36,438 nt of DNA. Source: Dichelobacter nodosus. Its GTDB lineage: Bacteria > Pseudomonadota > Gammaproteobacteria > Beggiatoales > Beggiatoaceae. Below, in pieces: positions 5,331 through 22,367 of the stretch. The notes under the pieces were generated by a model. That model ran no database searches. It saw nothing but the letters and a program-made list of their open reading frames with translations, and was not told where the DNA came from. The stretch spans positions 1-36,438 of the forward strand of contig DYPE01000015.1 in NCBI GenBank assembly GCA_020720085.1, given 5' to 3'. Both the position numbers and the translations under genes were made by a program. Within the stretch, counting starts at the first letter, position 1, and every line of letters begins with the position of its first letter.

Positions 5331-5870
5331 GTGCAGCACTTCTTCTCCATGCAACCGCCAAACCCCAGTCCCAACGCTGCGGATAACGAATGGGATGCGT
5401 ATTGGATGCGCCAAGCGCTGGCCTTGGCGGAGCTGGCGGGCGCGTGTAATGAAGTGCCGGTGGGCGCGGTATTGGTGCGTGATCAACAAGTTATCGGGCA
5501 GGGCTGGAACCAGCCTATTCTGGCTCACGACCCCAGCGCGCACGCGGAAATTTTGGCGTTGCGCGCCGCTGGCCGTGCTGTGGGCAATTATCGTTTGCCG
5601 GGCAGTGTGCTGTACGTAACGCTGGAGCCGTGCCCGATGTGCGCGGGCGCGCTGATCCACGCCCGTGTGCAACGGCTGGTATTTGCTGCCGCTGATCCGC
5701 GCACGGGTGCGGCGGGCAGTGTGTATTCTTTATTACAAGACCCGCGCCACAATCACGCGGTGGCGATCACCAGCGGCGTGCTGGCGCAACCGTGCGGCGC
5801 GCTGTTGGCGGAGTTTTTCCAGCGCCGACGCGCTGAGCACAAATTGGCAAAATCAGTTGTGGCTGGCTGA
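5331..5870 (+). CDS. tadA: tRNA-specific adenosine deaminase TadA
   Basis: TadA deaminates adenosine 34 of tRNA-Arg(ACG) to inosine. From the GTG at 5331 the protein is 179 residues (167 in E. coli). The zinc site is intact: HAE at 71-73 gives the histidine ligand and proton-shuttling glutamate, and PCPMC at 100-104 gives the two cysteines. The TLEPCPMCAGALIHAR and DPRTGAAGS stretches are typical. The GTG is chosen because AAAGGA lies ten bases upstream; an in-frame ATG at 5349 (173 residues) is the alternative. The last 18 bases overlap, tail to tail, the 3' end of the V-ATPase subunit E gene on the other strand. Confidence 0.93.
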   Translation: MQHFFSMQPPNPSPNAADNEWDAYWMRQALALAELAGACNEVPVGAVLVRDQQVIGQGWNQPILAHDPSAHAEILALRAAGRAVGNYRLPGSVLYVTLEPCPMCAGALIHARVQRLVFAAADPRTGAAGSVYSLLQDPRHNHAVAITSGVLAQPCGALLAEFFQRRRAEHKLAKSVVAG

Positions 5871-6506
5871 CGCTGGCAGCAGGCGGGAGAGCACCACTTG
5901 GCGCAGAGCGTCCGCCAGTTGTTGGCTGCGCCCTTCAAACGTATTGTCCACGCGGATGCGCCGATCCACGCTGTACAGCACGACACCGCCCACACACTCT
6001 GGCGGCGGCATGATGGCGAGGTGTATGGTTTTGGTTGGCGCGATCATGGCGGCAATGGCAGACCAGCGGCTGTGCAGGCGGTGATAATCGCGCGTGTTCA
6101 CTTCTGCAATTAATTCATCGCGTTCCACAGCCTGCGCTGCTTCGCGCAATAAATGATGAAACAGCGGCAAATAGCGCGTGTCATCATCCAACAGCCCCTG
6201 CCAGAGGGAGCGCAATTGGGCCAGTGTGCCGTCCACCAGCGCCCAACGCGCGCGGTCGATTTCCGCTTGCAATTGCAATGTCACGCCCTGCACTGTGCGG
6301 TGATACGTGCGATCCGCTACCGTTTGCGCGGCCTTAGCCTCGCGCTCCTGTAATTGGCGCAAACGGGCATGGCACTCCGCCTCGATTTGTGCAGCAGCAC
6401 GGCGGCCTTGTTCGCGCTGCTCCTCTGCCAACTCCTGCGCGCGGCGCAAAATGGCTTGTTCCAGCGCCTGTGCGGGCGGCACTTCGTGGGATGTCGTAGC
6501 AGTCAT
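5853..6506 (-). CDS. atpE: V-type ATP synthase subunit E
   Basis: Subunit E forms part of the peripheral stalk of V/A-type rotary ATPases. The 217-residue protein has a long charged coiled-coil N-terminal half (about 15-90, rich in Glu, Arg, Gln and Ala). The conserved C-terminal domain contains GGVVLYS, then RRIRVDNTFEGR and a final helix, the family signature. The start is the ATG at 6506, which overlaps the subunit F stop as ATGA, with GGAGG seven bases upstream. Upstream in-frame ATGs would run far into gene F and are rejected. No gene for subunit A, B or D follows; tadA overlaps its 3' end instead. Confidence 0.85.
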   Translation of the reverse strand: MTATTSHEVPPAQALEQAILRRAQELAEEQREQGRRAAAQIEAECHARLRQLQEREAKAAQTVADRTYHRTVQGVTLQLQAEIDRARWALVDGTLAQLRSLWQGLLDDDTRYLPLFHHLLREAAQAVERDELIAEVNTRDYHRLHSRWSAIAAMIAPTKTIHLAIMPPPECVGGVVLYSVDRRIRVDNTFEGRSQQLADALRQVVLSRLLPASASHN

Positions 6507-6823
6507 TCTTGCGCCTCCAATGCCGACGGGCCGAGCACTTTGCGCACCAACGCTTCCACGGGCGGATGATAATCCTGCGGCGTAGCCAAGGATGGAATTT
6601 CGATTAAAATTAATGAGCCAGCCCGCTGGCGCGCGTGCGCGTAGCAGCGCCCCAACGCGGGCGGCAGGGTTTGTTGCAAAAACACCAGGGCTTTCTCCTT
6701 GCGTTGCAATAACGTGCACAGCATGGCTTCTACTTCAGCGGGCGCAGCGTTGGGAAAAGTTTCAAAGCCGAGCAGCACAAAACCATCCATCAACGCGGCC
6801 TCGCCGAACGCCAGCAAACGCAT
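6503..6823 (-). CDS. atpF: V-type ATP synthase subunit F
   Basis: The 106-residue protein matches subunit F of V/A-type ATPases, a small Rossmann-like protein of the central stalk. The N-terminal strand and GFETFPNAAPAEVEAM segment, the middle KEKALVFLQQ segment and the following LILIEIPSL strand are the typical pattern. Its start overlaps the subunit K stop (TAATG) and its stop overlaps the subunit E start (ATGA), so all three genes look translationally coupled. The family is divergent and the call depends partly on the neighbours. Confidence 0.78.
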   Translation of the reverse strand: MRLLAFGEAALMDGFVLLGFETFPNAAPAEVEAMLCTLLQRKEKALVFLQQTLPPALGRCYAHARQRAGSLILIEIPSLATPQDYHPPVEALVRKVLGPSALEAQE

Positions 6824-7266
6824 TACATTTTTCCCAGCAACAAAATCGAAACCACCAGCCCATAAATAGCGATGCCCTCAGCCAGGCCAATAAAAATCAG
6901 GCTGCGGCCAAACGCTTCGGGTTTTTCCGCCACCACAGCCAGTGCTGCGGCACCTATCGGCCCTACCGCCAAGCCCGCGCCTATGGTAGACGCCGCTGTG
7001 GGAATGCCTGCGCCCAAGATGGCCAAGCCCATACCTTCGCTGATGATTTTTGCTTCTTGCGCCACCTCTTGCACGGCCAACGCTTCGCGCGCACCCAACC
7101 ACAGCAGCACGATTAAGCCGCCGACAAAGGCCAGCAAATTCAGGCCCAGCACAAACTTCATCCGCCCCAACGGGGCAGCCGCGCGAGTTGCCCCGCACTC
7201 GTATTGCCAACCGGCAACGACCGTGCCCAGCACCATTGCTGTCATGAGAACCGTAATCCAATACAT
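6823..7266 (-). CDS. atpK: V-type ATP synthase subunit K (proteolipid ring)
   Basis: This 147-residue, four-helix membrane protein is a c/K-type rotor ring subunit. TM1 is about residues 4-20, TM2 about 37-59, TM3 about 78-112 and TM4 about 121-145. TM3 carries the small-residue GAGLAVGPIGAAA packing motif. TM4 carries the likely ion-binding carboxylate, Glu130 in GLAEGIAIYG. No equivalent acid is seen in the first hairpin, so each protomer probably has one ion site. The sequence resembles H+-type more than Na+-type rings, but the coupling ion cannot be fixed by eye. AGGAG lies eight bases before the ATG. The gene for subunit I, the usual upstream neighbour, is missing. Confidence 0.85.
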   Translation of the reverse strand: MYWITVLMTAMVLGTVVAGWQYECGATRAAAPLGRMKFVLGLNLLAFVGGLIVLLWLGAREALAVQEVAQEAKIISEGMGLAILGAGIPTAASTIGAGLAVGPIGAAALAVVAEKPEAFGRSLIFIGLAEGIAIYGLVVSILLLGKM

Positions 7267-7402: not shown

Positions 7403-7610
7403 CAGCAATTCCCAATTTAAGACCATGAGATTAATATGGATATGACTTGCATGCCCAGAAAACATGCCGTTATTCCATCCAACAAGAAATATACGAAAAA
7501 TCCGGCTGCATAACGCCATGTCAATCACATGGATATTTATTATAAAAACACCTTTTTTCAATATGATATAAAGACATTTTAATAAAGTAATCTTAAATTG
7601 AGAATTGCTG
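7403..7610. repeat. MITE-like element with 18-bp terminal inverted repeats
   Basis: Terminal arms 7403-7420 and 7593-7610 match as inverted repeats at 17 of 18 positions (CAGCAATTCCCAATTTAA). The 172-bp interior is A/T-rich and has no supported gene. The same CAGCAATTCCC end bounds the element at 22218-22367. No convincing target-site duplication is visible. It occupies the place where V-ATPase subunit I would be expected. Confidence 0.55.
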
Positions 7611-22217: not shown

Positions 22218-22367
22218 CAGCAATTCCCGTTGGGTTGTCAGCCCTTGTAAAATCAGGGCGGTAAATCGACCATTTTACGGCGTATTTAACCTAAATGGCA
22301 TGGTCAGTGGTGGCATTACGACCACCCTTCGGCAAGCTCAGGACACCGTTCCCAATGGGAATTGCTG
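22218..22367. repeat. Palindrome-bounded repeat element (150 bp)
   Basis: Terminal arms 22218-22234 and 22351-22367 match as inverted repeats at 16 of 17 positions (CAGCAATTCCCGTTGGG/CCCAATGGGAATTGCTG). The interior includes a GGTGG/CCACC hairpin and CTTCGGCAAGCTCAGGACA, related to the CTTCGACA-GCTCAGG words at 33680-33780. It lies in the 450-base gap between the Rpn-type gene and glgP. The rest of that gap has no supported gene. Confidence 0.6.

Follow-up and report, generated by a model that had tools for sequence, protein, structure and literature searches.

Two short inverted-repeat elements with sister end types, very probably MITEs of an ISNCY-like DDE insertion-sequence family

The window analysed here, a stretch of 36,438 nucleotides, holds two short elements with matching inverted ends, and this observation, made in a first-pass annotation of the sequence, is confirmed. 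The first element (7403-7610, 208 bp, no strand assigned) carries the left terminal inverted repeat (TIR) CAGCAATTCCCAATTTAAGA at 7403-7422 on the forward strand and the right TIR CAGCAATTCTCAATTTAAGA, read inward, at 7591-7610 on the reverse strand, with 19 of the first 20 bases matching between them. The second (22218-22367, 150 bp, likewise unstranded) has a left TIR that begins with CAGCAATTCCCG (22218-22234, forward) and matches the right TIR (22351-22367, reverse) at 16 of the first 17 bases. The earlier counts of 17/18 and 16/17 matching end bases, respectively, were correct on recount, and the interiors do differ, as had been noted together with the lengths. Neither element contains a transposase gene, and ORFs of 131 and 108 aa that run across the two elements have no Pfam match.

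Both elements lie outside the adjoining Pfam-supported genes. The 22218-22367 element has a PDDEXK_2 gene on one side and a carbohydrate phosphorylase gene on the other, and 7403-7610 starts 137 bp past the start of the gene for subunit K of a V-type ATPase (6823-7266), which is followed by the subunit E gene. This element had been proposed to sit where V-ATPase subunit I would be. We saw no sign of disruption: an open 646-aa subunit I gene lies near the start of contig C78, followed by unrelated genes, so no loss of subunit I is attributable to 7403-7610. The E and K genes of the window (5853-7266) stand without a subunit I gene.

The end motif CAGCAATTCCC, with at most one mismatch, occurs at five sites in the window, whereas 100 shuffles had 1.05 on average and never as many as five, and four of these five sites are the ends of the two elements. 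A genome search for the motif, which the first-pass annotation had proposed, recovered 45 exact sites in the 2.97-Mb assembly (170 contigs), compared with one for the reversed control. Not every such site need be the end of an element; some single sites may be plain coding sequence.

The core CAGCAATTC is common to both elements, and beyond it the ends in this genome split into two groups. Type I ends (CAGCAATTCCCG) are found on the family of 22218-22367, on longer elements (e.g., of 315 and 369 bp) and on their relics. Type II ends (CAGCAATTC[C/T]CAATTTAAGA, also given as CAGCAATTC[C/T]CAATTTAAG; the form CAGCAATTC[C/T]CAATTTAA accounts for 12 distinct ends) are found on 7403-7610, on a 120-bp element at C156:7121-7240 and on several longer relics. 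Judged by these terminal sequences, 22218-22367 (type I) and 7403-7610 (type II) are assigned to two sister lineages, rather than to the single MITE family suggested earlier.

The 22218 family is repeated in the genome. Six two-ended copies of 108-190 bp, including the window copy, can be aligned, and a search with a 123-bp copy returned 17 matches, with the query itself and partial copies counted; several copies share one layout, are 80-96% identical to the query and lie at unrelated places. In 41 further genomes from the taxonomic family of this one, the same query had no match at E 0.001; a weak match in the L166 genome (E 0.03, 26 bases) was not accepted as a copy. By eye, the interior of the family showed no resemblance to the longer type I elements beyond the ends. 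The 67-base end of those longer elements had no match in 19 relatives; the 315-bp element (C151) has both ends in common with other copies. Both the copy in the window and that on C121 also hold stretches of another dispersed repeat, and the stretch in the window copy (CCCTTCGGCAAGCTCAGGACACCG, 22321-22348, forward) is missing from four of the six that align. This repeat of about 25 bp (CCTTCGGCAAGCTCAGGACACC, within 22321-22348) is also present at about 29 other places in the genome, and 29 of the 44 matches of one search fall roughly in 22321-22348. For the interior of 7403-7610, a single close relative was found, the 120-bp type II element (90% over 96 bp, BLAST), which shares the right part of the window element (7517-7610, forward). 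The case for mobilisation in trans is thus weaker for 7403-7610 than for 22218-22367.

A widespread DDE-transposase family, present in many bacteria and some archaea, has matching ends, and one relative is annotated as ISNCY, a group whose named subgroups include ISDol1 and ISMae2. Of 503 stretches that code for a relative in a named genome collection, the best 80 were kept; all 80 loci and three plasmid loci made up the survey of ends (n = 83), 77 with sequence on both sides. With an end defined as CAGCAATTCCCG within two mismatches (a looser version with four mismatches let 273 of 660 shuffles pass), both ends were detected at 46 of the 83 loci, compared with 1 of 770 shuffles. Among the 43 relatives with both ends and readable flanks, 25, from 17 sources, have a perfect target duplication of one fixed length, 9 bp, nine of these being copies in NaphS2; the other 18 match at 0-4 of the nine bases (17 relatives) or at seven (one relative). 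As a control, none of 1806 crossed flank pairs reached at least 8 of 9. Elements of Gloeothece and Aureispira have CAGCAATTCT ends (identified by eye in Aureispira, with a 9-bp duplication), and a Legionella element has CAGCGGTTCCCGG at one end and CAGCGGCTCCCGC at the other. In three relatives searched for the Pfam domain DDE_Tnp_1, the match was below the cut-off in two and absent in the third.

Autonomous elements that share these TIRs are present in the relatives, and in this genome as relics. A profile built from three relative proteins (profile A1) gave eight relic matches here and had matches in nine of the 185 genomes searched from the class, counting the present one; together with BLAST matches to Gloeothece, these relics point to a DDE transposase related to one annotated as ISNCY. 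Relics adjoin ends of both types: N- and C-terminal transposase pieces lie between type I-like ends at C93:3931-4882, and, at C159 and C8, sequence coding for the C-terminal part of a transposase adjoins type II ends. The profile search found relics only and no intact transposase in the assembly, so the search for transposase-bearing copies recommended in the first-pass annotation yielded remnants beside both end types and no intact parent. Several contigs terminate 53-55 bp inside type I ends (C58:1-54, C125:1-54 and C106:19224-19278) or type II ends (C122:16299-16351 and C128:1-53), and these five contig-terminal ends are identical within each type, except for one base in C58. Contigs breaking inside near-identical ends are expected at multi-copy elements, and intact parents presumably lie in unassembled DNA.

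Searches of three relic pieces against Pfam and NCBIfam gave one sub-cut-off Pfam match (DDE_Tnp_1_assoc, E 0.0098) and one chance match in NCBIfam, and around two DDE_Tnp_1 hits (C19 and C160) no type I or II end was present in the stretches read. Against plasmid records, the C105 relic gave good matches to Legionella and Aureispira and weak ones to Methylomagnum (E 0.06) and the Gloeothece ISNCY transposase (E 0.1). Among the fetched loci, the C159 piece is best matched by the Gloeothece ISNCY-annotated protein (43% over 68 aa) and next by L174 and L198, the ends of which are of the form ...CCCG or ...CCCA. Best matches to the C93 pieces are L156, L124, L165, L213 and others; six of the eight best matches to the C-terminal piece have both ends in ...CCCG forms (e.g., CAGCAATTCCCG, TAGCAATTCCCG or CAGCGGTTCCCG); of the remaining two, one is unclear and the other has no readable left side. 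Each end type is likely paired with its own transposase lineage, as judged from the best matches of short pieces rather than from a tree.

Thirteen two-ended copies in this genome were hand-picked for a test of target duplication, with degenerate pairs (e.g., C74, C83 and C89) left out. A perfect 9-bp duplication (GCGTAGTGG) was present at only one, C112:19897-20019 (L031:1498-1620), while at each of the other 12 between one and five of the nine bases agree. The target-site duplications that the first-pass annotation had suggested looking for are absent from both window copies, where 4 of 9 bases match in each case. Most of the 12 copies have well-kept ends, and since copies that are 80-96% identical should retain most of a duplication, decay alone is an insufficient explanation. 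A swapping of duplications by recombination between copies found no clear support when the outer 9-mers of 95 distinct ends were cross-matched; besides the true duplication, two pairs reached 8 of 9 (0.46 expected), one of which is probably a shared short motif. A rather doubtful account is that the two-ended copies kept their ends and lost or never made the duplication, either through recombination of palindromic copies or through a variant transposase that inserts without duplication.

The missing duplications are also consistent with both elements being decay products, that is, insertion sequences that suffered an internal deletion and have not moved since, for which the term mobilised in trans would be wrong. 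The many single-ended or degenerate relics in the genome, the resemblance of C91, C93 and C25 to such deletion forms and the single relative of 7403-7610 point the same way. However, the 22218 family comprises copies of one layout, 80-96% identical to the query copy, at unrelated places, and one of its copies has a perfect 9-bp duplication, which argues against decay products; we consider this explanation unlikely, although it deserves to be kept in mind. Far less probable is a conserved regulatory or terminator hairpin that does not move: each element is able to form a long hairpin (z -5.28 and -4.27) and both lie outside neighbouring Pfam-supported genes, but inverted ends by themselves yield a hairpin, these ends belong to a transposase family represented in many bacteria and some archaea, and the 22218 family is missing from all 41 genomes compared within the taxonomic family. 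Sharing of the ends by chance merits almost no credence given the motif counts in the genome (45 against 1) and the window (5 against a mean of 1.05), even though an 11-mer can be common without elements, as in a relative genome (G010) with 41 CAGCAATTCYC sites, 23 of which (20 stretches) were read and revealed no convincing two-ended element.

We conclude that both elements are very probably MITEs of an ISNCY-like DDE insertion-sequence family, with two sister lineages at work. A full element elsewhere would supply the transposase, which would bind at the conserved CAGCAATTC ends and, through a 9-bp staggered cut, insert the element, the type I lineage serving 22218-22367 and the type II lineage 7403-7610. 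Presumably each element was moved by the matching transposase, and the elements may be active at present. The earlier proposal of non-autonomous elements mobilised in trans is thus supported by the insertion-sequence-family ends, the transposase relics in the same genome and the repeated 22218 subfamily; it holds best for 22218-22367 and more weakly for 7403-7610, with its one interior relative. Mobile DNA of this kind is ordinary; here it is traced to its likely parents. The terminal motif (CAGCAATTCCCG with 9-bp duplications) ties orphan short repeats to a transposase family across distant hosts and would allow similar MITEs elsewhere to be assigned to parents, and the genome hosts two sister lineages together, distinguished by their end variants and each accompanied by transposase relics.

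The portions available to us of the literature on ISNCY elements and MITEs, including PMC8147514, PMC11448079 and PMC4853749, hold no description of these elements that we could find, and a literature search with the letters CAGCAATTCCC returned no insertion-sequence paper, judged by titles. According to the part of PMC4853749 consulted, the hupL MITE of Candidatus Thiomargarita nelsonii has a 10-bp direct and a 19-bp inverted repeat, the dsrA MITE has TATAG ends, and no parent of the Thiomargarita nelsonii MITEs was found in ISfinder. Like the window elements, these MITEs are short, repeated and without a transposase gene, a likeness that compares descriptions only. Another close counterpart is the ISNCY element on a plasmid of Gloeothece verrucosa PCC 7822 (transposase WP_013335080.1; 1766 bp), with ends CAGCAATTCTCATTTTG matching at 16 of 16 bases and a transposase akin to the type II relic. 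It is a full element with an open transposase, which the window elements lack, and that copy has no target duplication. Full-length relatives in Delta proteobacterium NaphS2 and Candidatus Parabeggiatoa sp. HSG14 end in CAGCAATTCCCG or nearly so, and many of the full-length bacterial and archaeal relatives have 9-bp duplications, yet these elements differ from those of the window in that they are mostly 1.6-1.8 kb long, encode a transposase and have other interiors.
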